DNA from: Adineta ricciae
Lineage: Eukaryota; Rotifera; Eurotatoria; Adinetida; Adinetidae
DNA length: 64,000 bases
Direction of reading: 5' to 3'
Assembly (NCBI GenBank): GCA_905250025.1
Contig: CAJNOJ010000031.1
Span: 124,001-188,000, forward strand
Positions 16,641 through 41,500 of the stretch are shown piece by piece (within the stretch, counting starts at the first letter, position 1; each line of letters opens with the position of its first letter). The position numbers were made by a program, and so were the translations under genes. Below the pieces are notes generated by a model. That model worked only from the letters and a program-made list of their open reading frames with translations, had not been told where the DNA came from and searched no databases.

Positions 16641-16745
16641 TTTGTACTTCTTCATTTTATCACCAATATATTTTAGCTTCATACTCGAGCAAAGAAGGTG
16701 ACATCAGCGAAAGAGAGCGAAGAGAGAGAAGAACGAAGAAAAAGT

Positions 16746-17142: not shown

Positions 17143-17156
17143 CTTTTTCCCCCTTG

Positions 17157-17542: not shown

Positions 17543-17635
17543 ACAAGTAGCGCTCATCATTTGGATTCGCTGACCCTTTTCTGAAAGAATTATCCTAGTG
17601 CTGACCACATTCAAACACTTTGAAAGACAACTTAG

Positions 17636-17841
17636 TGTGACGAATTATGAGAGTGATTGCCTATGTCCTTCGACATGATGGTGTGTTATGTCATCTACAC
17701 ACTCATAATCGTCTCGTTTCTTTATTGAACACAACTTATATAGGGAACATCGCGCATAATATAACAAAGAGAGAGCAAGGTCAATATCTATGAACAGGTC
17801 GCATAGGTGAACTGTAGATATACACTGACCGTTACACTTAG
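17636..17841. mobile_element. Small insertion (about 200 bp) inside copy A, with an empty site in copy B
   Basis: In copy B the sequence GACAACTTAGGCGCTG is continuous. In copy A the same site is interrupted by about 200 bp and the hexamer ACTTAG is present on both sides (17630-17635 and 17836-17841). This is a direct occupied/empty site pair. The exact duplication could be 4 to 6 bp. The ends (TGTGACG... and ...CGTTACAC) form only an imperfect inverted repeat, so the superfamily is undetermined. Confidence 0.7.
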
Positions 17842-18015
17842 GCGCTGCGATTGCTACCAGTCCTCAACTGAACCATGCCACTATGGCACACACTATAGAG
17901 TGAATAGAAGACAGAGATTGTTCTTTTTCAGGGATCGAACCGATTAGCCATTTGTCAGTGAGTAATTTTCGAGAACTAACTGTGTTGACTGAAAACCACA
18001 TCCCTCAATGGCTAG

Positions 18016-18660
18016 TCGCTCGTCAACCTCCCTCTGGTCGGTCACTCACGACCAGCCATTCACCTTTTCATCTGTTGTTCTATTTTCACATTTCTCGCAT
18101 GAAAATCTTACACATTAGCCTGTCTCTTTTCTCTGCTTTCAACAAAATAATGCCTTCTCCAATATTTTCATTGAGGAATATACATTTGCCAAATCCTTTT
18201 CAAAAATCGTTGAAGCCTGATAAGGCTATTCCAAGTGTACACTTTAAGATTAATCTGGAAATTAAACGCCAAGTCGTTCGTTGGTCTCCCTCCGGTCGGC
18301 CACTCACGGCTAGGTGTTCCCATGCGTATTCATTTTACTATTTTAACTTCATTCGGACGAAGACGCGTTCCGAAAAAGAGCACATTTCGGTAAATCAATT
18401 CATAATCAAAAACTAAGAAGCTTTACATAGCTATATGATTCTCTGGAAAAGGTTTCAATCTTCTCTCCACCACGAGGAACCTTAAATAGCTGCCACCTAT
18501 GTTCGTGCAGAGCAATGATTAATTTCTGACCAAGGAGTCTTAAAACTCTATAAAAATCACAAAGTTTGTTCTTAAAAATATTATTCTGCAAATCGACGAC
18601 TAGTCGCTTGTTTGCCTTCCTCCGGCTGGCCACTCGCGGCTAGCCGTTACATGTGCATTT
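18016..18660. repeat. Three internal palindromic sub-repeats
   Basis: Three related blocks at about 18016-18062, 18268-18324 and 18598-18652 carry the motif CCTCYGGYYGGYCACTC followed by a short inverse (e.g. CTGGTCGGTCACTCACGACCAG-like), each able to form a hairpin. Spacing is about 250-330 bp. Related blocks occur in copy C (about 40205-40262 and 40550-40572). They may be recombination or processing signals of the element. Confidence 0.55.
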
Positions 18661-19853
18661 TCACTCTTCTACTTAGTCTAGAACCACTTTTGAAACTAAT
18701 TCATTCATTCTCCTCTATTCCTTCTTTAAAAGTCACCCTCTTTGTGCTACCGTGACTGTCGAAGACAACACCTGAAAAGCGAAACATTATTTTGAATGAC
18801 TGCTATCAGATGATATTCGTATAGTATAGCTGTTTATAAAAGTGTGTGATCTCATTAATACGCTGATGACTATGGAGATCCAGCGATCGGATCTCAGTCA
18901 GCTGTTACATTTTGTTCTAGATATTGCCACTTAAAACATTATCGTCTAAAAAATTGATTCTTTGTCGCAAAAACCGCGTCAGAAGGTGTTCATGAAAAAA
19001 CTAACACCGGATTCGAGATCCTCGACCTCGATTACCCTTCAGTCGACCCTTACTCGACAACGAAGAAAATTTTCATTGCTTAATTAGCTAATGAGCTAAT
19101 TAGAATTTCGAGAAACTAACCTCAGATTCAAGTTCCCCGACCTCGATTACCCTACCGGTATTCATTTTCTAACGACGATCGATCAATTTCATCGATTTTA
19201 GAAATGCTGATTTCTGATTGGATAGGACAGACAGACAGACAAACTTTAAGGTTTTTAGCACAGCATTCAAACGCTGTATAACCCTTTCTTTCAGAAAAGG
19301 GAATAAATTTTATTTTTTAGATTGTAGAACTTCTCACGCTGCGTCTTTTGGTATATACCGATTTTTAATATAAAGTAATTATAAGAAATGCGAACATCAT
19401 TCACAATGACTTTTTCGTGGCTTAAGTTTTACACAACACAAACATAATTCACATCGAAAATTTATTGCTATAGTATTAACTGAAGTAGAATCAAATAGCA
19501 TAGAAAAATAGAGCTGCGTTTTCTCTATCTTTCTGTGGAATAAGAATTTTCTTTTGACTTTTTAATAAAGAAATAAAATAGAGGCGACATTACTTTTGGA
19601 TACACCTAAGTACGTTGGGCCTGGCTGAACTGCTCGTTCCGGTCCGTGGCATTTACAATGAAAACTAACACTGGGGAAAATAGAGATTGTTTTTATATAT
19701 TCTTGGGGTAAACCGACTCATTTTGTACGCAATGCAGTTACCTGTTTTTTGCCGAGTCAAGTTTGTTTACATAAATGAATAGGCTATACTGTTTCATAGA
19801 TGTTTTGATACAATAAATATGAATGAATGTTTTTTTCCGAAGGTTTTTTCTCA

Positions 19854-19861
19854 TGACGTCA
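19854..19861. promoter_or_regulatory. CRE-type palindrome TGACGTCA
   Basis: A perfect bZIP (CREB/ATF) site TGACGTCA, 138 bp upstream of a TATA box and about 450 bp upstream of the AAA gene start. An 8-bp match can occur by chance; the placement makes it a reasonable candidate. Confidence 0.4.
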
Positions 19862-19998
19862 CGCCTTCAGCTGTCTTTTCTTTCCGTTCTGTGCACCATG
19901 TACAGAACAGAATAAACAAAGATATACATCTGGACATCACGGTATTGGCAGGTGCAAATAAACTTTACTGGGTAAAAACTATAGCCATCTTGACGGGG

Positions 19999-20006
19999 TA
20001 TATAAG
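19999..20006 (+). promoter_or_regulatory. TATA box of the AAA gene cluster
   Basis: TATATAAG in the context GGGGTATATAAGTCGG, a strong TATA element. A start about 30 bp on would lie near 20030-20035, where GGTAAAAC could act as a donor for a 5'UTR intron. Confidence 0.5.
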
Positions 20007-20302
20007 TCGGAGTTGTTTTGCTTCAAAGATAGGTAAAACAACTTTTACTTTCTATTCTTTGTAAAGTAGTTATGCACTAGTGTAAGGCAAAGATAACTTT
20101 CACGGAATTTGAGCCCACATTTTCTTCTAGCCCGACAGATATCTTAAGATACGTCGACCCGAAGAATAGTTCCAATGTTAGCTTAGGAGAGACTCAGAAT
20201 TTATTCATTTTGGGATTCGTTTCTTTTGCTAAATCTAATAGGAGTTTTTTATTTCATACGAATTTATTCCCCGATTATCACGCCCCGTTGTCATTATTTT
20301 AT

Positions 20303-23300
20303 ATGTTAGAGGATATTCTCACAATGGCAACACGTCCGCAAACTGTTATCGAGTACCTCAGAGTAACAGAGAAGATGGACACAATCGATCGCACGAATCT
20401 TCAACAAATCCGATCTCAATATGCAACGGCCTTAACGGAAGACGATGATTTCGATAATGCATTATTGGTAGTGGCTAATCTTTTGAACGTTACTACAACT
20501 GCTGAAGACTTAAAGTATTTCAAGATAAGTGTTAATAGTGCTACGTTGGACGAAGCGTGTAAGGAGTTAGTGGATGAATTCGGAAAACAATTGGTTCCAC
20601 GTCAAAGCGCAGTAAAAATCCAACAACGGACAACAACAGAGTCGCAACCGATTGTATCGTTATCTCGAATGAGCTGTCAAATTCTTGTTAAACAGAATCG
20701 AAAAGAAATCATCGATTTCATTGGTGACTTTTTACTGGACGAATTCGATAAGTATGGAACGAACGTTATTCGTAGAGATCTTCGGTCGACCAGTGTACTT
20801 TTTGCATTTATCCGACATCAACTGGAAGATCGTGTTATTACTACTGGCCCTGGCGATTTAGTGTACAAATTTCCATTGGTTCCTCATATTAACATGGAAG
20901 ATAAGTTTGGTCCTTGGCATTTCGATCATCTTCACGATTTATTCGAGTTAAATCTTATTCCAGAAGATAATCATTTTCCTCGTCGATGGACATTAGCATC
21001 CAATACTACATTATTCTATACGATCGAAGCAACAAATGACGTATTGAGACCAAATGATGCAAGCCGAAATAATTATCAAACAAAACAGAATTTCTCTGTA
21101 TGTGAATTGCTTGCAACTTTACATAAGATCAAACTATATTTTCATCATATCCTTGGTGACAAACTCACCGCTATCAATGATTTTACGCCAGCTATGCTAG
21201 ACAATCGTTGCGTTGATGGAGTCTTCGATGAAATGCAGCAGGCTGGCTTTGCTGATGACGGACTCTTTGGTCAAATGAAAAACTTTTTTCTGCCACTAAC
21301 AGTGACTAAGAAAGATCTCTTGATCAATGATAATCAGTTGAAATCTATTCGCCGCGAATATGAGAAAAGTCTGGATCGCGCAAATAAATCAAAAGAAAAT
21401 TTACAGCAGCAGTATGAAAAAGCACATAGCGATTATTGGCACCATGTGGATAGGATAAAGGAATTGGAACAAGAAGTTCCCAACACGAAAGATACCAAAG
21501 AAATGATTCGAAATCAACAAAAACAGATGGCAACAAAAGTCAAAGAAATCGAAGATTTGGTAGAACAACTGAAACGACAAACAAATATACAAGCACAAAC
21601 TGCAGACCTTCTGCGACCCGAGAATATTAACAATATGAAACAAATAAATCCGGATTTAATCAAAATGAATCGAGGTTTTATCATGTACGGACCACCAGGT
21701 GAGTTTCTTCTAACTATTGGATGTGAAATACTTCTTATGTATAATTGTAGGAACTGGTAAATCTCAGATAATGAGCAAATTATCCACTCATACCGGTATT
21801 ACAATGGTGGCTTCTCAGCTTGCTGCCGGTGAACTTAATCGTCCACTCGTTGGTGAATCTGAACAAATTATTTTACATATATGTGAACGTGCTCGCCATA
21901 TTCCTTACCTGATCTGTTGTATATCAATTGATGAAATCGATTCGTTAACATCAAAACGTCAAAATGATACGTCTGAAGGAAGCGCTGCCAGACTAGGTAT
22001 TTTTCTTTCAATCATCGATGGAAATAAAAATATTCCAAACTTAATGATCTTCTGTGCAACGAATCGTATACATAGTATGGATGAAGCTTTCCTTCGGCGT
22101 ATGCAAGGGAAATTTTTTGTTGGTCGTCCGTCTGCTGCAGCAAGAAGGAGTATTCTTGGTCGAATGTCCACGGTTCATTTGCCACCCAGTCTACTTGAAT
22201 ACTCAGTTATGGTAACAACGAATTTTTCCGGAGCAGCAATGCGAGATCTTGCCAGTTCAATGACGGTACATTGTGTTAATCCTGGTAATACTCAATCGAA
22301 TTGCCAGCTTGATTATCCAACTGTGCTTCGATTCGCACACAAAGCTGCATACGAAAATCGGATCTTAATCGGAGGCGAAACCATACCTTCGCTTTTGCTG
22401 AAGGCAAAAGATAAAGAGCCATTATTGGCAGATAGGAAGTATCGTTTGGAGAATCTATCCAGCGGACCAAACTCCATCTGTACAGGAAAAATCCTGATTA
22501 ACTTTCATCTAAGGCGCATCGATATTGAAAAAAGATCAGTAACCAATCCAAAAACACATGCCAGCGAAAAGACCGTTATAACAGAAGATCTTCTTCCAAA
22601 TGAAACAGATACTCACGAACTGATTGAACGTTTAGCCTTCTACGGTATATTTCGTAATGTTCAACTTTCACAATTGATTGATTTAAATCTATTCGCATCG
22701 CAATCTGCTCATGATGAACGAAGCGGATTTGAAGTGTTAAAACAATTCTTCGATGAATCTTCTGCTTATCGACGTTCATTGATTGCTTATGATTTAGATT
22801 CATTGGTTGGGGTCAGTAAAAACGAAGGAGGCTCTGCAACAAATCGAACAACTAGCTCCGAAACAATAAATAAGAATATGTATACTTTTATCAAAGACAA
22901 ATTTCGTTCTGCTTATGTTCAATCGACGGCTGATACAAAAGAAACTATCGAACAATGGTCAATCATGATTATACGCGACCAGTATCTTCTTCGTCAATTT
23001 TACGGCGACACACAATTCACACGTCCAGAAGCTGAGTTAAAACAAGAAGAAGAAGATGCAAAAAGTGCCAAACGACAGATGAAATGTGTTCAATGTAATG
23101 ATTTCTACATCGAAGAAGACAATAGAATGGGTGCATGTGTGCATCATGATGGCTTTGTTTATAATGTGTATGATTCCGAACTTAAAGCATTATCACCACA
23201 CGATGCTGTTGAAAAGTTAATAAAAGAAGATGTTGGAAGCACTCAAACATCCGCAAAACATCAATTTACACCAGAGCAAAAAGAAAAGATCGATCGTCAG

Positions 23301-23474
23301 AAACAACGTTTTCGATTTATTTGTTGCAATCAAATACTGTCAGCATTACGTATGGCGGGAGGATGTAAGAGGGGCACACACAATTCAAAAGTCACGAAAC
23401 GTGAATGGTCTAATATCTGCATTAGCAATTCAGAATATAAAAGTCAATTGGCTAAACTAAAAAAAGGGCATTGA
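20303..23474 (+). CDS. AAA+ ATPase with C-terminal Cys/His domain
   Basis: Two exons (20303-21698, 21751-23474) give 1039 aa; an alternative ATG at 20324 gives 1032. The region upstream stays open but has no earlier ATG. The N-terminal part to about residue 360 matches no family I know, and about 365-450 is a predicted coiled coil. The AAA module follows: Walker A GPPGTGKS (463-470) split by the intron, Walker B CCISIDEID (Asp526/Glu527), sensor-1 motif FCATNR, and LRRM providing an arginine finger. The Walker residues look intact, so it should hydrolyse ATP. The C-terminus has spaced Cys/His: CVQCNDFYIEEDNRMGACVHH (about 911-931), then FICCNQ...GGCKRGTH (about 990-1010), a CxxC/CxxH plus CC/CxxxH pattern likely to bind zinc. 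Nearest annotated types are meiotic-clade-like or remodelling AAA proteins. It is first in a three-gene same-strand cluster. Confidence 0.85.
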
Positions 23475-23599
23475 AGAATTAGTAGTCTTTCGAATACGCC
23501 GCGCTTTTAACCGCTTGCTAACACTTTTTCAAATATTTTAAACAAGAAAACACATTACTGCTTTGTTATTTCAGATAAAGTCTATTATCGACAAAATCT
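23475..23599 (+). promoter_or_regulatory. 125-bp spacer with acceptor-like site (AAA to coiled-coil gene)
   Basis: Contains TTTGTTATTTCAG ending at about 23574, 25 bp before the next ATG, followed by an in-frame TAA, so the site joins a 5'UTR and not an upstream coding frame. Too short for an obvious independent promoter. Consistent with polycistronic transcription and trans-splicing, or with a 5'UTR intron. Confidence 0.45.
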
Positions 23600-26500
23600 A
23601 TGGCTGGACGTTACACCACGACTTCTTTACAAGCTGATGCAGATCTACAGGACGACGCATATGATCAAGAGGGGAATGATCATGAACCTTATATTAATAC
23701 TCCCATCAATTTCACCGCACGAGCTGAAAGCAACATTGATCAATATGAGCGCCAGCTGGACGGTTTTCGAGAAAATGCAATATCATATTCAAATGAGATG
23801 GAAAAAACTCTTGGTGCTTACCAACGAGTAGCAAAGGAAGTGGAAGATTTGAAAAAAGAGCTGCAGATTCTGCGAACTGAGCTCGGTGGTTTGACTACTG
23901 AACATGATAAGCTGCAACACGCACTGACTCAACAAAACAAAACGACAAGAGACGAAAACGAACAGAGAAATGATCATGAACAACAAATGGCTATTTCGAA
24001 TAATCAAAATCGTATACTCGAAGAGCAACAAAAGAAACAACGTGACATGGAGAAAAACTATGAAGCAGATGTCGCACAATGTGAGAAAGAGAAAAACAGG
24101 ATTGATCTGGAAATTGAAGGATTACAAACAGAAAAAGAAGGTTTAAAAGATGAAATAGAACAAATAAAAGCGCAGATAAAACAAGTGGATGAACAATTGA
24201 AGAAGACGCAGCAAGATTTAGCTCAGCGTTCGGCAGAGTTACAACAGCAAGAAGCTATGATGCGTAAACTAGAAAGTGAACAGCAGCAAATCAATATGGA
24301 AATTCAACATCTGCAAAAACTGATCGACCGTATTCAAGAATTAATCGCGCAAGTATGTAGAGATTATCTTGTCGAAACGTGTTTTTTCTTGTTCTATCCA
24401 TTTAGAATGAGAACCAGCAAGATAATTTGGAATCACGTATAGAACAGTTGAATCATGATAAACAAAATGCTGAAAATGAACTACAACATGCAAATGACGC
24501 AGCTCAGCAAGCACAACAGGCTATTCAAGCATTAGACACGGAGATGAAAACACTGCAATCTCAACTAGAACAACTCGTCCAAGAAAAAAATCAATTAGAA
24601 CAACAATGTCGTGAAGCAATGAACAAAGTTGAGGAAGTGAAGTATGTAAACAATACTCAGTTTAAACGAAAAAAAAAACATGATGATTATTCAGGCAAGA
24701 GCTTGCGCAGATACAAGAAGAGGTGAACCATTTACAAGAACAGCTTCAGGCGATTAATCAACAGCTGAACGAAAAACAAGAAGAATTAGCTGCAGTTCAA
24801 ACTGAAGAGAAAAACTTACAAGAATTATTGCAGAAAGAGAAGCAGACTCTGGAAGAAATAGATAAACGTGTCGATAGTTTTAAAAATGAATATAAACAGG
24901 CAGAGCATGTACTTAGCGCTACACAAGGGCGTTTGGAACAATCAAAGAAAGATCTTCATGAACAAGAACAATTAGAAGCCAAAATGCGTAAAACATATGA
25001 CGATCAAACAACATTAGTCAACCAAGCACAAGCCAAAGCTGTTGAAGCCAATCGAAATGAATCAGAAGCCAAACAAGCCTTACACAACGCTACTCGTGAG
25101 CAAAAGGCAGCAGAAGTTGAACTTGGACACCTGCAATATCAGTTAAGTATTGACAATGCACTCCTTGTAGCAGCTATGAGAGAACGTGAAGCTGCACTGA
25201 ATATGCCATTCGAAACACGCCAAGCAGCACTTTCGATAATAGATAACAAGATCAGTAGTCTTAGACGAACTGTGGCCGAACAAGCCAACAAAATACGTAC
25301 AGCGGAGAGCAATTTACATCTCGCAAGTGATAAGTGTAACAAAGCCCGAGAATCATGTCAAACAGCTGAGCAGAATAAGAAAAATGCCGATCAGTTTCTA
25401 ACTGATTCAAAAACAAAATTAACTGATTGCAAAACAAAGTTGGATCAGCAGACAACAGTCAAAGATGGAGCGAAGAGCGAAGTGGAAAAGCAAACTGTAG
25501 CAGTTGAGAAAGCCACGGAAAAGGTCAAACAAACTGAACATCAATTAAATCAAAATAAAGAGCAACAAACACAACAAAAGATAAAAGTAGATACCGTCGA
25601 TCACCAAGTAAAGGAAAAAACAACTCAGGTCGTTCAATTGAAAGCAGCACACGACGAGTTGCAAACCAACCAGAAACATAGCCAGGGCATACTCACTCAA
25701 GCAAATGGCACTTTGGAACAAACGAAAGTTAAATATAATCAATCCACAAAAGATCTCAAAGAATTACAGGAGAAGGACACAGCGAAAAATAAACAAATTG
25801 GAGAAAATAAGACTTCGATTGAGCAAAAGCAAACCCAATTGGACAATGCACGCTCTGAGTCTTCTCACAAGGAGACTTTATCACGTGAAGCTAAAAGTAA
25901 GGTTAAGCTAATTGAACAAGAACTGAAGATGCAAGGACAATCCAAAGAGAAACTAGTTGAAGAAAGTCGAAGACAAAAACAAAACCTTTCTTCAGAGCGA
26001 AACAAAAGTGATAACCTCGCCAGTAGGAAAGACGCTGTTCAGGAAAAGCTCACGCAAACACAAAACGAAAGAGCAAGGATCGAGAACGAAGTTCATCGGC
26101 AAAGTCAAGAATTAGAAACTCAAAACCAATTATTGACGGAAAAAAATAAGGAGATGAATACAGTTTCTAAAAACGTGAAGGCCAAGGAGCGCGTGGAAAA
26201 ACAACTTAACAAACAGTTGGAAAAGCAGACAGCTAGTTTGAAACAGATCCAGGCACAAAAGGCCGATTTAGAACAAAAACAGACCAGCCAACAGCAACCT
26301 GTTATCGACAGAAATCATCCAACGGTAACTATGCACATTTATTCAAGACATCGAGTAATTCTTATATTCTGAATAGGTTGATGGTATTGACATACAAAAA
26401 GTCAGAGATGCTCTTCAACAAATGTCCGACCAGTTCATTAGAATTCCTAGAGAAATCGATGCAAAAGAGCAAGATTGCGAACAACGCGAGGAGGTGTTAA

Positions 26501-26694
26501 ACGAACTCAATACTCGTATGCAGAACTTGCAGGCTGCAAAACAGGAAAAAGATAAGGAGGAAAAGCGCGCTTGTAATCATTTTATAGCCGAGTGCAACAA
26601 AGAAGTTTATAAATTGCAACAAGCTCATCAAGCATTATATGAGACAAATTCAAATCAACAACAACAACAAAATCGAAACTATAATTTCGCGTAG
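23600..26694 (+). CDS. Long coiled-coil protein
   Basis: Four exons (23600-24352, 24406-24641, 24695-26324, 26377-26694) join in frame to 978 aa. Apart from an acidic, disordered N-terminus (about residues 1-40) and a polyQ-containing C-terminus (SNQQQQQNRNYNFA), almost the whole protein is heptad-rich Glu/Gln/Lys sequence (e.g. KEVEDLKKELQILRTEL), like the rods of SMC, myosin or golgin proteins. No ATPase head, motor or membrane segment is seen. It probably forms an extended dimer acting as scaffold or tether. It starts 125 bp after the AAA gene and ends 101 bp before the SecA-like gene; this conserved-looking packing suggests a shared role with both, which is an inference. Confidence 0.85.
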
Positions 26695-26795
26695 AATTAA
26701 CACTTCAAATCCATAATAAAATTTCTTAACATGTTTTTTTTATAAACTAATCATGATCTCCTTCTATTATACTTTCAGATATAAACTCGAAAACG
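26695..26795 (+). promoter_or_regulatory. 101-bp spacer with acceptor-like site (coiled-coil to SecA-like gene)
   Basis: CTATTATACTTTCAG ends at about 26779, 17 bp before the ATG. The bases between acceptor and ATG are open in the ATG frame, so cis-splicing to an upstream exon is not excluded. AATAAA-like text sits near 26716. Confidence 0.45.
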
Positions 26796-29700
26796 ATGTC
26801 TAATCAATCGAATAGTATCCACGACCTTATCCAACGAATTCAAAATGGTCACACTCCAACCGAAGATTGCATCAACCACCTTGCGCATGACTTACTAAAT
26901 CAAGGATTAAGCTACGATTCATGTCGTGTCTTTGTAATTCTGCTGAATAGGAAAATACCGTTACCTAGTCTAGTGTATGACCGAATTTTCAATGTCATTA
27001 TCAACAACCACAGTCAAAGAGCAAAAGAGGAGGCAATTCACTTCATTGATTCATTCGTCGAAGGTGGTGGACAAGCATCAAGTTTACTTTGGAATGCACT
27101 TTCAACAGCATTACTAGATCATCAATCAGAATCATTACGAACAAGTGCACTGAAAATTCTCCTTACTGCTATCAAAAGATCAAACGGTACCAACCTGAAT
27201 CAATTATTCTGGATAAAAATGTTCACCGCATTAGATCAACGATCCACTGATGTACAACTCAACATATTAGAACTCTTTCTAGCACTTGTAAAGAAATCCA
27301 GCTATTCTATTGGCAAAGATATCATCAGTCGTATGGAGCTGTACTTGTCAAAAATATCCCAATCTGTTGAGAAATATTTTGATCAATGTAATAAAACAAC
27401 GCTATGGTTCTTATATGTAGTATCCCAGAAACATAAAATAAGCAATCGTGTGTTGGAAATTTTCTCTGATTTCTCAATCGCGGACGGTTCTATTGTTGAG
27501 CAAAATGTTTTAAATAATAACGCACTGCTGGTGATTCGATTATTCGTTCAGAACAAGTCAACACATGAAAATGTACCAGAAAAAGTGATACTGAATCTCT
27601 CAACGTGTTTCAAGCGGGGCGCATTCGGAAATACACAATTACTAGAAAGCTGTCTTCAAACGTTATCTGCTTTAGCTGATAATGAATTGGCAATGGCACA
27701 CCTGGATGGAAATCAGTTGAAATACTATCTAAAAGATCGACATTTAGAAGAAAAGCTACGAGCTAGTGTAATAATTCTCTTCGGAAACATCTGCAAAGGG
27801 CACTGTACATATGTTGATAATGAAATAATCGATGTTCTCATCCAAATGCAAGATGACAAAAAACTCTCCAAATCTTGCCTTTCCACGCTCAGCAATATTG
27901 CTCAGCGTCAACCGGATTATTTATCTAAATATCCTCTTCAAAAATTCGCAATGATTCTCAACCAAGATAAGAATAACAAGAATTTACGTCAAGACGCTTG
28001 TTTAATACTCGATTGTGCGATTCGAAAGCAATTGCATTTAACCAAACACGAGGTCGGTGCACTAGAACATGCACTCAACGATTCTGATCGTAAACTATCT
28101 CTCACCGCTCTCATTGCATTCCAACATTTATTCGAAAATTACCACAACAATACCGATCTAATCGGACAGTACGTGAACAAAGTTTGCAAATGCGCCATAG
28201 ATTTAATATTGAAATCCAACGAAGAGTTTACTTTAAACGCATCGAAACTGTTGGAAATACTTCTTAAGTATAATTTGAAAGACAAATTCATCGATGCCGA
28301 AATCAATGTTCTGCATAGAGCACTACTAAAGAATTCGAATCAAGCAATTAATCGATCGATTTCAAGGTTATTAACTCAAATTCGCTCAAAACAACTGAAT
28401 TTTCCATCGGATACACGTCGTTTGATTGAAATAGATCAATTAACAAATGAGTTCTTGCAGAAGAAACCGATTAACCGGACGGATTGCGACGAATTTGAAA
28501 AGAAATTAAATGCATATTTTCATGGAAACCTTCTTAGCAATAGACCTATCCCAAGTGCTCTATTCGACGCTATTGGGATAATATTAAAAACGAACTCATA
28601 TGATTTCAAAACAACTTCCATACTGCTACAGTTCGCGGAAAGCAGAAGAAGACTTCCGAGAACTTTCATCGAAATACTCGTTGAACAGTTTTCTATAAGC
28701 AAACAAATGAATCGATTGGAACGTTTCGTTCACATTTTATATCTCACTTTTGTTACGAATAATCAGCCATTGACTGAAAAGTTCCCTGGACAATTTCGAG
28801 AAGTTTTTCTTCGAAATCAATTCTTCTCACAATATGCTCTGAAAATGCTCGATTTTCTAATAAAACGAAATCAAATTCGATTGGATAGTTCAATTTATGA
28901 CAAATTAATCAACTTATTACAAACTTCAATGGATACTAATCTTCTTGAAACATTGGCTATTGCCTTAGAAAACTCTTCTGCAACCGCTCAACTTCCAGTA
29001 CAGCCAATTTTGAAAATAATCGAAAATAATCTGCAAGTGAAATCGTCCAGTGCGGAAATTAAGTACTACTCTTGTTTAGCGATAGATTCGCTTCTTCAAT
29101 ATCGAATTACTCTTTCGGAGGCAACATTAAATCTGCTGAAAACTTACGCAAGAGGTGATGATACTCAATCAATGATTAATCAGTCTTCGAAGATGAGTTT
29201 ACGAGAAATCTCACTGTCTATACTGGAAAAATACTTTCGGGTAAACGAGAAAGTTCTTCCCGACGACATTGAACACATGGTGAATCAAGAAGTTAGCGAA
29301 AAGGGACTTCTAGACCTAAACAATCCGGTGACTCAATTGGAAACAGCGAAGCAACTCTTGTCATCCATGGTTAAAAGCAGTAAAACGTCTTTATCGAAAT
29401 CTCAAATCGAAATTTTAATAATATGTTTGACTTCTCCGAATTCATCACGTGAATTGAAATTGACTCTTCTGAAAATTTGTCAACTTACTCCATCGAATTT
29501 GAATTCTGCACTCATTCAATTGATTTTCAAGTTTATTAAAGATTCTCAGCTGGCCGAAGTTGTGATTGAAATCTATAAATCCTTGGTTGACATGAAGACT
29601 TTATTCCCCGACGAAATCTTGATTTCATTAATTCATTTCCTATCTGAAAGTTCCAATGAAGTTTTCAAAGAGTCAGTTATCGAAGGTTTGAAAAAAATTA

Positions 29701-32700
29701 TCGCTTATCAAAAGAATATCTCTAAGGAATTACTCCATCAAATCGAATTAGAAATTCTTGTTAAAGATCCCGAAAAGAAAACTATCTTCCTTGAAAAATG
29801 TTATCAAGCGGTACGTAATCGTCAGAAACTATCTCGCAACATCATTCAATCGTTGGAAAGTCTTGCGAAAGATATGGAAGGGAAAGTCTTCGAGATCATC
29901 GACTTAGCCATACAAAATGGTCAAAGGTTCTCATTCACTTTTCTCCATTCGATTAGTCAGGAAATCTTCAAATCTTGTGAAGATAATGTCGATGAATCTC
30001 TTGAAATTATTCTTCGAGGTACACAGGATGGTAATCAATTGAGTTCAAAAATGATCGAGTCTTTGAAGAGAATTCTCAAAAATCCCAATCAACAACAACT
30101 TTTCACCATTCTGAAAATTCTAAGCAATGAAGTGAAGCACACCTTAGCACTCGATATAGATATCATTCGCAGTTTAGAAAACCTTCTTCAAGTTCATCCT
30201 CTATCAGTTTTACATATTCTCAAATATCTTCAGAGTTACCAGCCTTCACCGGAATTCATCACTAATCTCAATCGTTTGTCCCAAGAATACTTCAGCGATC
30301 AGCAAATCAACGCCATGTTTGAAGAAATTGCCAATCAGCCGTTGCAAGTTAACTTCCATTTCATGGAGATTCTATTCACTGTTGAATATATTGATGAGGA
30401 TATTGATAAATATTCCGAGTTGTATTCATTTCGTCATTTATTATGCAATGATCTGATCATGCGCACGGATCCCCACAACCAATGCGTGATGGACCAGTCG
30501 GAATTCGAAGTCAATTTGAGTAATATAGAACGACTCTTCTCCTGGGAGAGTTGTTCGTTTGAACGCGATGATTTTCTAATGTTTTTAATTCGAGAATTTT
30601 CGACACTCTCTTTACGAACTATCAATAGTATCTTATTGTTACTGAAATCCGGTCCTGAGGCGTTGCGCGCTCTATTCAAGACTTCTTCTTTAAGAAACTT
30701 ACAAATCCATTGGCTTAATTCCATCATTGATCGATCTTCGTATATTAAACTAAATGAAACAGTGAAATTGGATGGTGATCAAGCAGATAAAATCATTGAT
30801 TTACTATTTGCGAAACTCGAATTCAGTGTTTCATTAAGTGAATCTTTTCTACAACGTATTTACGGCATTGAAGATTGGAATCAGCTGATCGAATTCTTAA
30901 ATTTGATTTTTGAGAAAAAATTCTCCGAGAAAATCAATTTCAATGAGTATTTCACTCGTCATGATTCAGAAGAAATCATCGCGACGAATCTGTATTTCTG
31001 GATGATGGACATCAAATGTGATTTCATTCGAAACAGCATTGCCATTCTTTGTGAAGAACATCAAATTAACAAACCTACAACTCTAGAGAATCTTTCGTCA
31101 GTGATTCTTACAATCCTTCTTCGGAATTGGCCATTCGAAGTCTTTGAACGATTAATAGAACTTTTAAAATCAAGTCGAGATCAAACATTTGAACTCACTG
31201 TTGAGAATTGCATTGAAGCATTATTCGTGATCAATAATTTTGCACTAGTGAATGATCATGTCATAAAAATTGAATCCATATTCCAATCACAAAAAAGCAA
31301 CGATTGGCCAGTACTCATACATCAATATGCTGTATCGGCCTTATTCAATCAGCAAGATTGTGAGAAAACTTTGAAAGAACTGCTCAGCGAAATCAAAAAC
31401 GGTCAAGAATTGAGTCTTTCAACTGAAACTCTTGAACAGACGTATCGAGAAATAGTCTCAATCTATAATAATGATTCAAAAGTGCATCCAATCGGTAAAG
31501 CCATAAACAACTGGGACGAAACTGATGTCAAGAAATGGTCGATGACTTATAAAGCAAGTGCAGAAAAACCTACGAACGAAGCAATATGTGTCATTAAACG
31601 TGCAGTATTTCTACACAATTCAAAACAAAGTATCGAACCTCGAACTATTCAAATCCTCAGCTTATTACTATTGTTACACGAATCGGAAGGCAAGAACAAA
31701 AGAATCGCTCGTTTAGCACAAATTAAGACAGGTGAAGGGAAAAGCCTTATTATTGCCATGTTTGCTGCAATCAAGGCATTGCACGGACATCAAGTTGATA
31801 TTATTACCACGTCACCATTATTAGCAGAACGTGATGCGAAGAGTAAGAAGACATTTTATAACATGTTGCACCTCACTGTTGGAGATAATAATGGTATTGC
31901 ATCGCAAAAACCTTGTTATAAAGATGATGTTGTGTATGGAAGTGTGGAAAATTTTCAATTCGATGTATTACGAGATGAATACAGTTTACTCGAGACACGC
32001 TTTCAACGTCAATTCGACATTGCGATTGTTGATGAGGTTGATAGTATGTTTATCGATGGAAACTCCAGTTTTTGTTATTTAGCAAGTAAAACACTAGTGA
32101 TCGATGAATTACAAATAATCTTCGTTCTTATCTGGCAAGAACTAAATCGCACATGCGAACGACTTGTTCGAATCGATGACAAATTGTATTGCATAACAGT
32201 ACCATTTCGGAGAGATCACAATGGAGAAATTACTTTATTAAAGCCAGAACAAAGCACTGCAATAGATGTCGGTGGTCAAGATTCAGCAAAAGCGGAAGAT
32301 TATTTTGAAGTTGAAGATGAATATACATTCATTGAAAATCACATTACGGATTATGTCGAAAATATGTTGTTAAAACCCAACAAAAAGAATGAATGTCTTA
32401 TCTATATTCCCAAACACCTGATTTCATTTGTTTCTCAGCAAATTCGAAAATGGATTTACAGTGCGTGGCAAGCGAAATTTGTTCTTCAAGAAAATAGGCA
32501 ATATTTAATATCCGAAGGAGACAATGGAAACAAATCGATTATACCAATCGACTATCAAAGTACAGGTATCATACAAACGAACAGTACATGGAGCGGCGGT
32601 TTACAGCAATTTTTAGACATCAAACATCAATTAAGGATTCATCCTGCAAATTTAACAACAAATTTCCTATCCAATGTGGCATTTTTTAGTAAATACAAAC

Positions 32701-35700
32701 ATTTATTTGGTTTAACTGGCACTCTGGGTGGACAAGAATCAAAAAACATCATTCAGCATATTTATAACGTTGATTTTGTTGTTATTCCACCGTATAAACA
32801 TACGCAATTTGTTGCTTATCCAGATCAAGTGCGTTTTTCCGAAGATGCTTGGTTAAACGAGTGCGTTCGATCAGTGTATATCGAAAGTAAGATACAACAG
32901 CGGGCGGTACTAGTCATATGTGAAACAAGATTAGATGCAATGCAAATTCGCAAAACATTAATTGAGAAAGACAAACAATTAGAAAGAATGATAAAACTCT
33001 ACACACGAAGTGATAATGATGAACGACGAGCCGTTGAGTATGTGTTAGATTGTGGAGAGATTATTATTGCAACAAACCTTGCTGGCCGAGGCACTGATAT
33101 TGAAACAACGCATAATGTGGAAAGAAATGGCGGTTTGCATGTTTTACTAACATTTTTACCAATGAATACACGAGTGGAACAACAAGCATTCGGTCGAACT
33201 TCCAGACAAGGAAAACGCGGCACTGCACAATTAATTGTGCTATCATTGGTTCCAAATGAAACGAGTGATGGGCATGTCCAAGCACTGAAAAAGACTCGAG
33301 ATGAAAAAGAACAATCACAAATAGAACGCACAAAGTCTATTGATTTGAAACGAATTCGACAACGTGATGCATTATTTCAAAAGTTTTGTAATTTCTTAAA
33401 AGAATTACGTGAAAAAGAAAATGATAAATGGAAATTAAGGTCAGTCGAAGAATTATGGGCGTTTTGGCTTGAAACAATTGAAGATCTCAATGATGACTCA
33501 ATCCAAAAGAGCTTTGAAGAATTTCGCACGAGAATATCCAACGATTATTCATCCGATGCCATTTTTCACAATCCGTTTTATTTAATTTCGAAAGGACTTG
33601 CTTGTTTATCGAAAAAGAGATACGAAAAGGCAATAAATTGCCTCCGAACGGCTGTTAAACTGGATCTGGTGTATACTGTTGCCGCACGTTATAATTTAGC
33701 TTATGCATTAATGGTCAAATCCAAGAAAGAGGAAGCAAAAGTTGAACTTCGAGAAGCTTTGAGAATCATTGAAAATATTTTCTTACCTCAACAGGAAACC
33801 ATGTTAGTGTCACTAAAAGTCCACCAAGATGCGACAAGCAATAGCGATGTTGAAAATCAAATTATGAATCGACTTAACCTTTTATTTTTAAGTAAAAACC
33901 ACATTGAACAAGCGATCACTGTCCTTGAAGTGGCGGAAAGCAAGAAGCATAATATTCGTTTACGACGCAAAAGTTTAGAAGAATTCTTCAGTGAGATTGA
34001 TCATTTGAAATTGGATATTGAGCAATTCAAAGAGAGTGGTTTCGTGGCATACTTTCAGTTGACTACAAGAGAACCGACACCATGGTTGAGTATCATTACA
34101 GTTGCTATGATTGGTCTTGCACAAGCAGCTGCTGGTGCTGCTCTAATCGTGTTCACAAGTGGCGCAGCTGCCAATATTGGTGTTATGTTGTTGAGCGAAG
34201 GAGCTGGTGATATGATACTTGCAATAAAGTCTGCAGTTACGGGTGAATTCAATTGGAAACAATATGGAATACACAAAGCGATCAGTGTTACAGTGACCGT
34301 TGCAACATGTGGAATGGCAGCTTTGAAAGAGACGGGTTTAGCAATCAGATCAGGAATGAAAGGCGCCTCTAATGTGATCCGAGCAGGAAAGATTGTTGGT
34401 CAACAATCAATCGGACAGTATAATAGAGAAGGTTTCAAACTTCTTGGCATGAAAATGGTTGAGACGTTTGCGAAACAAGGTACTAAAGAACTTCTGATAA
34501 CTGCAGTCGATCAAACAGTTTTAGCTGCGCTCAATGAGAAAATTAACAAAGAATTCTCGGACGCGATTCGAGAAAAAATCAAGAATGAAGTATACGGCAA
34601 CCAAACAATTGATCAATTGTGTGTGCTTGCTGATAATTCAGAGCAAGTGATTGAAGGTTTAGCCCGTCAAATTTTATATAATACTCGTGATGAATTTGTT
34701 GGTGTTGTCAAAGAGATTGCTGTAGGTATATTGGGCCAAGTAACCAAAGGCACTAGTACAATTGCTATACAAGTAATTACTGGCGGGAAATGTCTCTACG
34801 ATTTGCTACAATGTTGCAACAAATTTGTGGTGAAACTTAGAAACGAATTAGAAAAATTAAAACATAGACTGACGATTGATAATTCACTGAAGACTAACTT
34901 AGAAGATATTAACAAAGAACAACTCAAGGAAATCATGGATTCTTTGAAAAAGAACGGTTATCTTTCAGAAGATAATAGTCAAGTTCTCAAACGACTTCAA
35001 TCATCGATATTTCGATCGAAAAATAATCCAATTAATAATGATAGAATCATCAAAATCTGTAATGACGTATACGATCGCGCTATGAACAAACCCCAAATTG
35101 AACTTAAAAAAAACTTAATAACAAAGGTATTAACTGATGAAGTTGCTAATTACATGACAAGTCGTCTCAATGCTGAACTGATCAAGCCTGTCGCTCACAT
35201 TGCCATAAACATAGCCGTTGACAAGTGGTCATCTGAAATGGAACGTATACTTGCTAGTAAGAAAGGAACATTAACAGAACGAATTGAAAATCGTCGAAAT
35301 TTCAACAAAATTATTCAAGCTAGAGATGATGCTCAAAATCGATCAAATGAACCGATTGATCCATATATAGCAGAACTAGCTAATAGTGTTGAAAATGGTG
35401 CTTCCGGTGATATTATGGATATTATTGCGATAAGTGATAACCTTCAATGTCCAATAAAAGTTTTCCGTAATGGAACATTTGATCTGACGATTGGTGAAGA
35501 GTATCGTGGAAAACAATTAAGTGTGAATTTTCAGGAAGGTGAACGTGGAAACATTGGACATTACACTAATATGAATAGCGCCGTTCATACTACTTCGACA
35601 GGTCGCTACAATTGCTTATTTGATGTGCTTAGTGCACAAACGAATATGGACTCTAATGAATTGAGACAAATGAAACTTAACGAGGCTAAGAAGCACCCTG

Positions 35701-36482
35701 ATAGATATCAGAAAATGTTACGTTCTCGAAATAGTTTTCGGCAAGATCAGAAGAACAATTTGATATACATAGGTGGCAAGGAAAATAAAATTTCGGAAAC
35801 GGAACGTCTAGCAGGCAGGCTTGATATAATACTTCAAAGCATTGAAAATAGCAAGATCAAAGTTACGAATAAACAAATTTTAGAATTGATCAAACATGAT
35901 ATCACCACTGAAGACACTAAAAAGGGTATATACGGCAACAAGTATGCAAAAAAATTGTTTCACAGCTCCATAATACACCGCTTAGCTGAATTTGAAAAAC
36001 AGAATTCCGACTTATTTTCCAAACAGTTGTCACGCGGCGAACCATCTTATGACATCGTTGCTCAGTTTTATTTGTTACAGAATAGTTGGAAAAGCGAAGT
36101 GACCCCTATGGACATGCCAGACTATCATTATTCTCAGCTAAATGTCAATGCGAAGTTCTCAAGTTGTAGTACGGATGCAGCTAAAGCTTATCTACCTGGT
36201 GGACTACGAGAAAAGATTGCAGATAAATGGATCAAGACAGAAGGAACGCAAGCTATCCAAGAAATGGGACCAGCTTCGTTCCCATTGCGATATTTTACTC
36301 ATAAAGGGCGATTGGTGTCCATCGACAATAGAATGCTCTTAGCCCATCAGCTCAGTGGTTTCACTCCACATAGAATTGTTCCAAGTGTACCAATTGAATC
36401 AGAAAAAAATAGAGTGCACAACCCAGGCATACCCACTACCACACAGCCAAAATATGATAAAAACATAAACACAGAGCATTAG
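26796..36482 (+). CDS. Giant helical-repeat / SecA-motor / TPR / OTU-like protein
   Basis: One uninterrupted 9687-bp exon encodes 3228 aa, intronless beside intron-bearing partners. Residues about 1-1550 are helical HEAT/ARM-like repeats. A complete SecA-type DEAD motor follows: TGEGKS (1645-1650), VDEVDSMFID (Asp1746), LTGTLGG (about 1970), IATNLAGRGTDIE (2093-2103), and FGRTSRQGKRG (about 2131), the SecA RGRSGRQG equivalent. About 2255-2330 is TPR-like. About 2430-2510 is a Gly/Ala-rich hydrophobic stretch that may be membrane-active. About 2858-2990 looks like an OTU cysteine-protease region with His block NIGHYTN (His2922) before Cys block GRYNCLFDVLSAQ (Cys2940). The C-terminus has VSIDNRMLLAHQLSGF. 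SecA is the bacterial preprotein translocase ATPase; eukaryotic SecA-like giants are uncharacterised. The motor looks catalytically intact. Role unknown; a bacterial origin of the motor is inferred. Confidence 0.9.
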   Translation: MSNQSNSIHDLIQRIQNGHTPTEDCINHLAHDLLNQGLSYDSCRVFVILLNRKIPLPSLVYDRIFNVIINNHSQRAKEEAIHFIDSFVEGGGQASSLLWNALSTALLDHQSESLRTSALKILLTAIKRSNGTNLNQLFWIKMFTALDQRSTDVQLNILELFLALVKKSSYSIGKDIISRMELYLSKISQSVEKYFDQCNKTTLWFLYVVSQKHKISNRVLEIFSDFSIADGSIVEQNVLNNNALLVIRLFVQNKSTHENVPEKVILNLSTCFKRGAFGNTQLLESCLQTLSALADNELAMAHLDGNQLKYYLKDRHLEEKLRASVIILFGNICKGHCTYVDNEIIDVLIQMQDDKKLSKSCLSTLSNIAQRQPDYLSKYPLQKFAMILNQDKNNKNLRQDACLILDCAIRKQLHLTKHEVGALEHALNDSDRKLSLTALIAFQHLFENYHNNTDLIGQYVNKVCKCAIDLILKSNEEFTLNASKLLEILLKYNLKDKFIDAEINVLHRALLKNSNQAINRSISRLLTQIRSKQLNFPSDTRRLIEIDQLTNEFLQKKPINRTDCDEFEKKLNAYFHGNLLSNRPIPSALFDAIGIILKTNSYDFKTTSILLQFAESRRRLPRTFIEILVEQFSISKQMNRLERFVHILYLTFVTNNQPLTEKFPGQFREVFLRNQFFSQYALKMLDFLIKRNQIRLDSSIYDKLINLLQTSMDTNLLETLAIALENSSATAQLPVQPILKIIENNLQVKSSSAEIKYYSCLAIDSLLQYRITLSEATLNLLKTYARGDDTQSMINQSSKMSLREISLSILEKYFRVNEKVLPDDIEHMVNQEVSEKGLLDLNNPVTQLETAKQLLSSMVKSSKTSLSKSQIEILIICLTSPNSSRELKLTLLKICQLTPSNLNSALIQLIFKFIKDSQLAEVVIEIYKSLVDMKTLFPDEILISLIHFLSESSNEVFKESVIEGLKKIIAYQKNISKELLHQIELEILVKDPEKKTIFLEKCYQAVRNRQKLSRNIIQSLESLAKDMEGKVFEIIDLAIQNGQRFSFTFLHSISQEIFKSCEDNVDESLEIILRGTQDGNQLSSKMIESLKRILKNPNQQQLFTILKILSNEVKHTLALDIDIIRSLENLLQVHPLSVLHILKYLQSYQPSPEFITNLNRLSQEYFSDQQINAMFEEIANQPLQVNFHFMEILFTVEYIDEDIDKYSELYSFRHLLCNDLIMRTDPHNQCVMDQSEFEVNLSNIERLFSWESCSFERDDFLMFLIREFSTLSLRTINSILLLLKSGPEALRALFKTSSLRNLQIHWLNSIIDRSSYIKLNETVKLDGDQADKIIDLLFAKLEFSVSLSESFLQRIYGIEDWNQLIEFLNLIFEKKFSEKINFNEYFTRHDSEEIIATNLYFWMMDIKCDFIRNSIAILCEEHQINKPTTLENLSSVILTILLRNWPFEVFERLIELLKSSRDQTFELTVENCIEALFVINNFALVNDHVIKIESIFQSQKSNDWPVLIHQYAVSALFNQQDCEKTLKELLSEIKNGQELSLSTETLEQTYREIVSIYNNDSKVHPIGKAINNWDETDVKKWSMTYKASAEKPTNEAICVIKRAVFLHNSKQSIEPRTIQILSLLLLLHESEGKNKRIARLAQIKTGEGKSLIIAMFAAIKALHGHQVDIITTSPLLAERDAKSKKTFYNMLHLTVGDNNGIASQKPCYKDDVVYGSVENFQFDVLRDEYSLLETRFQRQFDIAIVDEVDSMFIDGNSSFCYLASKTLVIDELQIIFVLIWQELNRTCERLVRIDDKLYCITVPFRRDHNGEITLLKPEQSTAIDVGGQDSAKAEDYFEVEDEYTFIENHITDYVENMLLKPNKKNECLIYIPKHLISFVSQQIRKWIYSAWQAKFVLQENRQYLISEGDNGNKSIIPIDYQSTGIIQTNSTWSGGLQQFLDIKHQLRIHPANLTTNFLSNVAFFSKYKHLFGLTGTLGGQESKNIIQHIYNVDFVVIPPYKHTQFVAYPDQVRFSEDAWLNECVRSVYIESKIQQRAVLVICETRLDAMQIRKTLIEKDKQLERMIKLYTRSDNDERRAVEYVLDCGEIIIATNLAGRGTDIETTHNVERNGGLHVLLTFLPMNTRVEQQAFGRTSRQGKRGTAQLIVLSLVPNETSDGHVQALKKTRDEKEQSQIERTKSIDLKRIRQRDALFQKFCNFLKELREKENDKWKLRSVEELWAFWLETIEDLNDDSIQKSFEEFRTRISNDYSSDAIFHNPFYLISKGLACLSKKRYEKAINCLRTAVKLDLVYTVAARYNLAYALMVKSKKEEAKVELREALRIIENIFLPQQETMLVSLKVHQDATSNSDVENQIMNRLNLLFLSKNHIEQAITVLEVAESKKHNIRLRRKSLEEFFSEIDHLKLDIEQFKESGFVAYFQLTTREPTPWLSIITVAMIGLAQAAAGAALIVFTSGAAANIGVMLLSEGAGDMILAIKSAVTGEFNWKQYGIHKAISVTVTVATCGMAALKETGLAIRSGMKGASNVIRAGKIVGQQSIGQYNREGFKLLGMKMVETFAKQGTKELLITAVDQTVLAALNEKINKEFSDAIREKIKNEVYGNQTIDQLCVLADNSEQVIEGLARQILYNTRDEFVGVVKEIAVGILGQVTKGTSTIAIQVITGGKCLYDLLQCCNKFVVKLRNELEKLKHRLTIDNSLKTNLEDINKEQLKEIMDSLKKNGYLSEDNSQVLKRLQSSIFRSKNNPINNDRIIKICNDVYDRAMNKPQIELKKNLITKVLTDEVANYMTSRLNAELIKPVAHIAINIAVDKWSSEMERILASKKGTLTERIENRRNFNKIIQARDDAQNRSNEPIDPYIAELANSVENGASGDIMDIIAISDNLQCPIKVFRNGTFDLTIGEEYRGKQLSVNFQEGERGNIGHYTNMNSAVHTTSTGRYNCLFDVLSAQTNMDSNELRQMKLNEAKKHPDRYQKMLRSRNSFRQDQKNNLIYIGGKENKISETERLAGRLDIILQSIENSKIKVTNKQILELIKHDITTEDTKKGIYGNKYAKKLFHSSIIHRLAEFEKQNSDLFSKQLSRGEPSYDIVAQFYLLQNSWKSEVTPMDMPDYHYSQLNVNAKFSSCSTDAAKAYLPGGLREKIADKWIKTEGTQAIQEMGPASFPLRYFTHKGRLVSIDNRMLLAHQLSGFTPHRIVPSVPIESEKNRVHNPGIPTTTQPKYDKNINTEH

Positions 36483-36790
36483 TTTCAAGTAAGTTTTTTT
36501 TTCAAGAAAATATCATTACTTGTCGGTGTAGACACTCGCGTCAAAAATTATCTTTTAAATAAAACTATTCACGATTATTGTTCCCCATCTATCCTTGTGT
36601 GACGAAAGCTGTGATGAACTTTTAAATATTTCCTTTGTTTGGAATAAAAAGTGATACAATGTTTCCGTCGTAAATTCCCGACAGAAAAAGTTTACCTATT
36701 AAAATATATAAAGAAAGTATAGCTAATGGTATGATGAAAAGGAAGCTATATATATTGATCATGTTTTGTCATGTGATTTGAGTATAAAAT
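36483..36790 (+). other. 3' flank of the SecA-like gene
   Basis: AT-rich. A poly-A signal AATAAA occurs at about 36558-36563, roughly 76 bp after the stop codon. Nothing else is supported before the foldback element begins. Confidence 0.5.
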
Positions 36791-37328: not shown

Positions 37329-37339
37329 ACCTAAATTAT

Positions 37340-37810
37340 TAATATACAGGGTAAGGGTTGACCGAAGGGTAATCGGGGTCGAAGATCTCGAATCCGAGGT
37401 TAGTTTCTCGAAATTCTAATTAGCTCATTAGCTAATTAAGCAATGAAAATTTTCTTCGTTGTCGAGTAAGGGTCGACCGAAGGGTAATCGAGGTCGAGGA
37501 TCTCGAATCCGGTGTTAGTTTTTTCATGAACACCTTCTGACGCGGTTTTTGCGACAAAGAATCAATTTTTTAGACGATAATGTTTTAAGTGGCAATATCT
37601 AGAACAAAATGTAACAGCTGACTGAGATCCGATCGCTGGATCTCCATAGTCATCAGCGTATTAATGNGTGTGACATAGTGGCATGGTTCAGTTGAGGACT
37701 GGTAGCAATCGCAGCGCCTAAGTTGTCTTTCAAAGTGTTTGAATGTGGTCAGCACTAGGATAATTCTTTCAGAAAAGGGTCAGCGAATGCAAAGGATGAG
37801 CGCTACTTGT
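37340..37810 (-). repeat. Dispersed repeat element, copy B (right inverted arm)
   Basis: Nearly identical, in reverse orientation, to two separated parts of copy A (18853-19155 and 17543-17893). About 960 bp present in copy A is absent here, and the join coincides with the only ambiguous base of the window (N at 37667). It lacks the 200-bp insertion present in copy A. With copy A it brackets the three-gene cluster. Confidence 0.82.
37667..37667. other. Ambiguous base N, probable assembly join
   Basis: The single N lies exactly at the internal breakpoint of repeat copy B relative to copy A, so it probably marks a collapsed or scaffolded join and not a sequencing error. Confidence 0.6.
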
Positions 37811-39549: not shown

Positions 39550-41500
39550 GCTTTTTCCCTTTTCTGAAAGAAAGGGTTATACAGCGTTTAAAATGCTGTG
39601 CTAAAAAGCTTAAAGTTTGTCTGTCCTATCCAATCAGAAATCAGCATTTTTAAAGTCAATGAAATTGATCGATCGTTGTTAGAAAATGATTACGGGTAGA
39701 GTAATCGAGGTCGGGGAACTTGAATCTGAGGTTAGATTTAACTAATTATTAACTATTAATTAACTAGCTGTCAACTAGCCTTAAATTATTAATATGCAGG
39801 GTAAGGGTTGACCGAAGGGTAATCGGGGTCGAGGATCTCGAATCCGGTGTTAGTTTTTTCATGAACACTTTCTGACCCGTTTTTTGCGACAAAGGATCAA
39901 TTTTTTAGACGATAATGTTTTAAGCGGTAATATGTAGAACAAAATCTTATAGCTGACTGGCGTCCGATTGCTGGATCCCTATAGTCATCAGCATATTATT
40001 GAGATCACACACTTGTATAGACAGCTATATTGTAGAAATATCACCTAGTGCAAGTCAATCAAAATAATGTTTACTTTGTCAAGTGTTGTTTTCGATAGCC
40101 GTAGTAAAACAAAGGCGATGACTTTTTAAGAAGGACTAAACGGGAATGGATTGATTAGTTTGAAAAGTGGTTCTAGATTAGATAAAAGAGCGAAAATGTA
40201 CATGTAACGGCTAGTAGCGAGCAGCAAGCGACCGACCAGAGGAAGGCCGACTAGCGATCAGTCGTTGATTTGAAGTATAATATTTTAAAGAACAGATTTT
40301 CATATAAGTTTTAAGACTTCTTGGGCGTAGTACTTAATCGTTGATCTCCAAAATAATATCTGGCAGCTCTTTAAAGTTCCTCGTGGTGAAGAGAAGAATG
40401 AAATCTGTTCGTAGAGAATAAAATACCTATGTAAAGTTTGTAAGCTTTCGATTATGAATTGATTTTCTAAAATGACCTCATTTCTGGATAACAGCTTCGT
40501 TCAAATGAAGTTAAGATAGTAAAATGAGTACGCATGGGAAAGTTAGCCGTGAGTGGACGACCGACTAGGCGTTTATTTAAGAAGCTTAGAGAAGATAAAA
40601 TAAGCGAAGGGTCTGGTTCACTTGACCGGCAATCCTGCGGCCGACACATTCTTTGGTCGACACCATTTGATCGACAGTCTGTTTGACCGACAACTCATTT
40701 ACCCGACAGAGTCTTGAAGTCAAAACAATTGATTGAACAATCGTTAATACAAAGAATGAGCGCCCGGAGAAGGTGGATATTAGAGAGTCCGTCGAGCAGA
40801 TGGATAAGTGAAGATCACGCAGCTACTGCCTATTACAAATCGAAACGTGGCCTTTTATAGGCGACGACATGCAGTAACAGATAGACAAAGAGATCCACAT
40901 GATATTGCTCGCAACAATGAGATAAACCCTGGACAGTGAGAGAGAGATCCAGATGAGACACAAGATAATCACAGACAGGGAAAAGGTGAGACAATATGAT
41001 CAGAAATAATCACTGAGCAATGAGACACGTGATGATAACTAAACGGAGAGAAAACGTTTGAGTTCATCACCCTCGCCCTCACACACCCTTATTTTCGAGA
41101 AAGTTGAATTCTTTTGACTTCAAGACTGTGTCGGCTAAATGATTTGTCGGTCAAACAGGCTGTCGACCAAAGAATGTGGCGGTCACATGATTGTCGCTCA
41201 ATTGAATGCGCCCCTAAGCGCAAGTAAATCAATTTTTTATTTTGAATAGTCGGCAGAGAGTCGATGAATAAATGTTTACAATCATTGTTCGCTTTGCTTA
41301 TATCTTTGAACAAATGAATTCAAAGTAATTTCTCATGAATAAAGTAGAAAAGGATTAAGAGGAAATAATATGCATAAATATGACTCCAACTCGAAATCGC
41401 TTAGATTGAAATCTAAGTGAGTTTTTATCTACTAATTTTAAAATTCTTTCAGAAAAGGGTCAGCGAATCCAACGGATGAGTGCTACTTGTTATTATGTTT
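39550..41500 (-). repeat. Dispersed repeat element, copy C, interrupted
   Basis: Carries the subterminal 16-mer CCCTTTTCTGAAAGAA at 39557-39572 and its complement at 41444-41459, and matches copy A (17.99-19.3 kb) in reverse. It is clearly more diverged than copy B and lacks the block around 19060-19110. A foldback element is nested at 40607-41215. The outer end (GAGTGCTACTTGTTAT, near 41480) is that of copies A and B. Confidence 0.75.
40607..41215. mobile_element. Foldback element nested in repeat copy C
   Basis: Inverted arms of about 100 bp (40608-40730 and 41105-41215) share CACATTCTTTGGTCGACA, GTTTGACCGACAA and AGTCTTGAAGTCAAAA. Flanking AAGCG occurs on both sides (40602-40606 and 41216-41220), a probable 5-bp target duplication. 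No transposase ORF. Arms are about 85-90% alike, so it is not very recent. Confidence 0.72.

Follow-up and report, generated by a model that had tools for sequence, protein, structure and literature searches.

The bdelloid rotifer Adineta ricciae carries, in the 64,000-bp window analysed here (C31:124001-188000 of the 130-Mb assembly), three genes that follow one another on the (+) strand at window positions 20303-36482. They encode an AAA+ ATPase, a long coiled-coil protein and a giant protein containing a SecA motor. The best explanation of the locus as a whole, to which we assign a probability of roughly 55%, is a resident three-cistron bdelloid operon resolved by trans-splicing. Spliced-leader trans-splicing, acting at TTTCAG sites, probably divides a single precursor RNA into three capped mRNAs. 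Cistron one specifies an NSF/Cdc48-like AAA+ ATPase and cistron two a long coiled coil; cistron three encodes a giant SecA-motor protein like those of intracellular bacteria and some animals. The sequence shows the gene models, a diverged second copy of the linked triplet, conserved sites in the spacers, genes for the spliced leader, motor motifs that are intact, and purifying selection on the SecA gene of the second copy. Co-transcription and a joint role of the three genes are inferred.

Gene models, spacers and putative trans-splicing sites

A preliminary description of this DNA had placed three same-strand genes here, separated by spacers of 125 and 101 bp, each ending in a pyrimidine-rich AG just before the next ATG. 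Spliced gene models bear out the gene arrangement, and both spacers have the form described (Table 1). The AAA+ gene has a single intron of 52 bp (21699-21750). All introns of the AAA+ and coiled-coil genes are of the GT-AG type and measure 52-53 bp, and the SecA gene has none. The AAA+ product is 100% identical, over 99% of its length, to a deposited A. ricciae protein of 1,032 residues, which is 7 residues shorter.

Table 1 Features of the three-gene locus and of the repeats around it (window positions).
Feature	Position	Strand	Description
AAA+ ATPase gene	20303..23474	+	ATG 20303, stop 23474; 1,039 residues; spliced model, Pfam AAA, PDB profile, fold, alignments
Spacer 1	23475..23599	+	125 bp; putative acceptor for trans-splicing (TTTCAG, the end of which lies 25 nt before ATG)
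Coiled-coil gene	23600..26694	+	978 residues; introns 24353-24405, 24642-24694, 26325-26376
Spacer 2	26695..26795	+	101 bp; AATAAA upstream of TTTCAG, the end of which lies 17 nt before ATG
Giant SecA-motor gene	26796..36482	+	3,228 residues; one open frame, single exon
SecA motor	31449..33242	+	residues ~1552-2149; TGEGKS 1645, DEVD 1746, GRGTD 2097, GRTSRQG 2133
Permuted OTU-like segment	35328..35675	+	residues ~2845-2960; GHY at 2921 before NCLF at 2939
Exchangeable C-terminal tail of giant SecA protein	35676..36482	+	
Dispersed repeat, left copy	17543..19306		outside the operon
Dispersed repeat, right copy	37332..37810		inverted relative to left copy; interrupted by N at 37667
Dispersed repeat, third copy	39552..41493		

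The first AAA domain is of the active type, with the Walker A sequence GPPGTGKS. In the alignment, Walker A is found in 13/13 rows and Walker B in 13 rows, with N for D in P0088. The product is NSF/Cdc48-like, as judged from a PDB profile and from comparison of its predicted fold. It shares an active AAA domain, and perhaps a second AAA-like region, with the type II AAA proteins NSF/Sec18 and Cdc48/p97. Unlike in these, the second region, which is NSF-D2-like, lacks Walker A in the alignment, the structure model puts a long helical hairpin ahead of the first domain, and a Cys/His-rich tail closes the protein. A CHORD-like identity of this tail was considered and set aside, the tail having no match in Pfam. 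Close members of the AAA family are bdelloid in every case in which a species is named. For the coiled-coil protein, no homologue was retrieved from the protein database at E <= 1e-10 among 7,990 scored candidates; the protein's own entry was missed too, so this search says little.

TTTCAG ends 25 and 17 nt before the starts of the window coiled-coil and SecA genes, and 24 and 22 nt before those of their counterparts in a second triplet on contig C97, i.e., at 4/4 starts examined. As a background, of 2,532 ATGs counted over the two window strands, 53 have the hexamer in the 40 nt ahead of them. AATAAA lies ahead of TTTCAG in both coiled-coil/SecA spacers. The bdelloid spliced-leader exon has 41 matches in the genome, each with one mismatch to the exon sequence used as query, and a control has none. 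GTAAA stands directly 3' of the leader exon in all five different copies examined. The conserved spacer acceptors and the spliced-leader genes together support an operon resolved by trans-splicing, and the presence of leader genes in the same genome strengthens the earlier view of the spacers as operon-type. Many leader gene copies (C6, C8, C77, C99) form opposite-strand pairs about 153 bp apart. Trans-spliced operons of chaetognaths, as described in excerpts of PMC12460157, are alike in having short intergenic spacers and a spliced leader in the genome; in contrast to them, the A. ricciae operon is a presumed one, read from genome sequence.

The preliminary description had also proposed one promoter upstream of the cluster, consisting of a TATA box and a cAMP-response element. 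The marks exist (TGACGTCA at 19854, TATATAAG at 19999), but the window holds 2 and 3 copies of them against 1.2 and 2.1 expected. The motifs occur at chance level and so do not show a single shared promoter.

A second triplet and the surroundings of the genes

Contig C97 carries a second, strongly diverged triplet, with order and strand as in the window. The cluster thus passed the check for further copies that had been suggested with the first description, although its AAA gene has decayed at C97 to a remnant (~305861-306943) of short pieces in different frames. The C97 coiled-coil gene is intact (307156-310463; 1,047 residues) and shows 38% identity over 833 residues to the window copy. Intron phases, derived from exon lengths, are 0, 2 and 0 in both. 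The coiled-coil/SecA spacer is 112 bp long, as opposed to 101 bp in the window. SecA is represented by residues 5-2489 and, past an assembly N, by a second piece covering residues 1311-3223, with 41-58% identity to the window protein. A short break with intron-like ends lies near residue 1535 in both pieces. The N joining these overlapping pieces, at C97 ~318253, and the single N at window 37667 are probable assembly gaps.

A seven-residue motif of the coiled coil, searched as degenerate DNA, has 2 matches in the 130-Mb genome, one in each triplet, and its reversed control has 0. The genome has 16 SecA matches. When the surroundings of 8/16, the window included, were examined (tblastn, E <= 1e-5), SecA had AAA and coiled coil beside it in the window and at both C97 matches. 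These comparisons support the triplet as a conserved linked unit. In the same genome, C323:82208-82849 is a broken SecA copy with an in-frame TGA, and a 3,753-residue frame is open on the same contig.

The genes might instead be chance neighbours, each trans-spliced separately. In bdelloids of two families, according to excerpts of PMC1925144, a 23-nt leader is added to more than half of the transcripts, so that a gene with an acceptor need not belong to an operon. The second triplet, in which gene order is the same and the coiled-coil/SecA spacer of similar length, nonetheless makes coincidence a very improbable account.

The triplet could also have been carried by a composite mobile element whose ends are the inverted repeats at 17543-19153 and 37366-37810, within the left and right copies of Table 1. 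The left and right arms are 98% alike over 301 nt, above any other scored copy (the next best reaches 91%; 40 of 364 candidates were scored), and the triplet recurs with unrelated flanks: no flanking gene is common to the window and C97 when window open frames of >=50 residues outside the triplet are compared with 40 kb at C97, a comparison that short exons could escape. The repeat, however, belongs to a dispersed family with 61 matches and has inner inverted ends of 16 nt of its own, and a third copy lies nearby. Moreover, the repeat-bearing stretches of the window (15000-20300 and 36483-40000) have no match in five genome regions examined, C97 included. A composite transposon is thus disfavoured and appears improbable.

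The motor of the giant protein and its relatives

The motor matches Pfam SecA_DEAD with 127.5 bits (cut-off 24.6) and also PDB SecA chains. A SecA_DEAD match above the cut-off in a protein of 3,228 residues, far longer than SecA, places the product in the giant-SecA family. It falls well short of the equivalog cut-offs for canonical SecA (PRK12904, 166 bits vs 814; TIGR00963, 156.5 vs 800). Motor trees of 81, 46 and 39 rows all separate giant proteins from short ordinary SecA, in the first two with 100% support in the Shimodaira-Hasegawa-like approximate likelihood ratio test (SH-aLRT). Neither the scores nor the tree position fit a canonical SecA translocase.

We found 46 database relatives; those with a species name come from bdelloids, a frog, a fish and a nematode, and include a full-length protein of Rotaria socialis (51% identity). 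Related bacterial genes, for which the best 80 of 556 matches were taken, corresponding to 76 loci and with ordinary SecA among the weaker ones, occur in Amoebophilaceae, Rickettsiales, Legionellaceae and Parachlamydiales, as well as on a Candidatus Megaera plasmid. Bdelloid members are spread over several clades. A single clade for 14 named bdelloid rows is rejected (p 2.3e-6) in a quick tree of 39 rows, the tested group having been chosen with a first tree already in view; in the 39-row tree, the fork that sets the Megaera protein among bdelloid rows is supported at only 80%. The trees suggest more than one transfer of the family between bacteria and bdelloids and are compatible with either direction.

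The ratio of nonsynonymous to synonymous substitutions (dN/dS) is 0.12 between the two C97 SecA pieces (959 codons), showing that codon changes in this copy have been under purifying selection. The ratio is 0.30 between the C165 and C275 genes (1,352 codons), and window and C97 SecA differ by a dN of 0.27 and a dS of 1.75, the latter near saturation. A bacterial contaminant, or DNA recently inserted from a bacterium, would fit a SecA motor encoded by 3,228 codons in a single exon. Results already speak against it: the neighbours in the same unit have introns, both C97 SecA pieces share the intron-like break, and the R. socialis relative is full length. This origin therefore has next to no likelihood.

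Giant secA-domain genes common to Wolbachia (wBol1, wHa) and eukaryotes were described in 2013 (Duplouy, PMC3639933), with an argument for eukaryote-to-bacterium transfer, and a 2016 study reported SecA domains from phage WO (PMC5062602); both are cited from excerpts. The A. ricciae gene likewise encodes a SecA-like motor within a very large protein, of a kind present in intracellular bacteria and animals and distinct from canonical SecA. The likeness is drawn from the published descriptions. The excerpts differ in that they mention neither an operon nor a partner of the AAA or coiled-coil kind; the word 'rotifer' is absent from the 2013 text. The preliminary description had held that no system of this composition was known. 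No contrary publication was found among the papers listed from a literature mostly outside subscription journals, but the statement must be narrowed, as the kind of protein encoded by the third gene has been known since 2013.

The C-terminal region and a possible joint function

Near its end, the giant protein contains a segment in which the order of the OTU catalytic halves appears to be permuted: GHY, on the His strand, stands ahead of the Cys helix motif [ND]CLF in the aligned proteins (window, C97B, P0005, P0006). The His half likewise precedes the Cys half in EschOTU, a circularly permuted OTU deubiquitinase (excerpts of PMC7396840). EschOTU has Asn two residues after His; the window protein has Thr at this position, neither acidic nor Asn, as do P0005, P0006 and C97B. 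Past this motif, members of the window SecA clade have a common body but tails of at least three kinds. For instance, P0017 and P0018 are 91% identical and have similar bodies but diverge behind the motif, and the tails of P0012 and P0007 are unlike those of P0001, P0005, P0006 and C97. An exchangeable C-terminus after a conserved body is a trait of polymorphic toxins and effectors. The tail has no domain family or PDB match worth naming, and it may resemble ParB-like toxin motifs. Amoebophilus-type effectors, in excerpts of PMC3482391, share SecA-like and OTU domains and exchangeable C-termini; unlike them, the A. ricciae gene resides in an animal genome, as the third gene of a presumed operon.

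From their linkage, the three products might form one machine. If the operon is accepted, we give the following mechanism somewhat less than an even chance. HEAT-like and tetratricopeptide repeat (TPR) regions of the giant protein would bind targets, the SecA motor would thread polypeptide, and the permuted OTU-like end would act on ubiquitin or cut its own tail. The coiled coil would serve as a scaffold, and the AAA protein would disassemble the complex or its substrates. The whole would amount to a symbiont-type effector in host service, perhaps against intracellular bacteria. A stronger proposal is that the operon joins a giant SecA/OTU effector of symbiont type to a coiled coil and an NSF-like unfoldase of the host, making a dedicated intracellular machine for defence or protein remodelling, and that this unit has been inherited from a time earlier than the separation of the bdelloid families; in our view this is doubtful.

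A different possibility, clearly less probable than the resident unit favoured here yet a serious one, is a true operon whose cistrons have unrelated jobs, a foreign SecA gene having gained ready expression behind two host genes. A tblastn comparison of AAA and coiled coil with 77 bacterial loci (L029-L105) gave no match at E <= 1e-4, which hints at histories differing from that of SecA. An AAA-family motif searched as degenerate DNA has 9 matches in the genome (control, 0), and one further AAA paralogue, examined over 4.2 kb on its downstream side, has neither coiled coil nor SecA there. On the other hand, the unit has been kept through deep divergence in two unrelated surroundings, and the coiled-coil motif is confined to the two triplets.

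Several results weigh against the favoured operon or its joint function. The four TTTCAG sites form two homologous pairs and are not four independent draws, and the wide use of the leader among bdelloid transcripts means that an acceptor alone is no proof of an operon. Five of the seven other SecA matches examined (C323 twice, C165, C275, C11) are without AAA or coiled coil. No Walker motif is present in the C97 AAA region (six frames of 303000-307156), and the decay of this gene implies that AAA is sometimes dispensable. Within its clade, the window SecA stands on the longest end branch (0.40 vs 0.0017-0.17, 81-row tree). The Pfam OTU match scores 19.2 bits, short of the 23.3 cut-off, and the region is poorly modelled (mean predicted local distance difference test score, pLDDT, 60.4). 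A fold search with this poor model returned 0 matches with E <= 0.001, yeast Otu2 ranking 22 with E 2.9.

If the favoured operon is real, animals known for foreign-gene uptake have long kept a bacterial-type motor gene in an operon, next to partners specific to their lineage. Whether operons aid the expression of foreign genes, and whether hosts reuse symbiont effectors, would become testable.

Elsewhere in the window, an open frame at 3773-4546 contains a polysaccharide deacetylase domain, and another at 14476-15795 combines a rhodopsin-type receptor domain with a glutamine-rich repeat. A 10-bp tandem repeat forms two arrays at 16563-17134.
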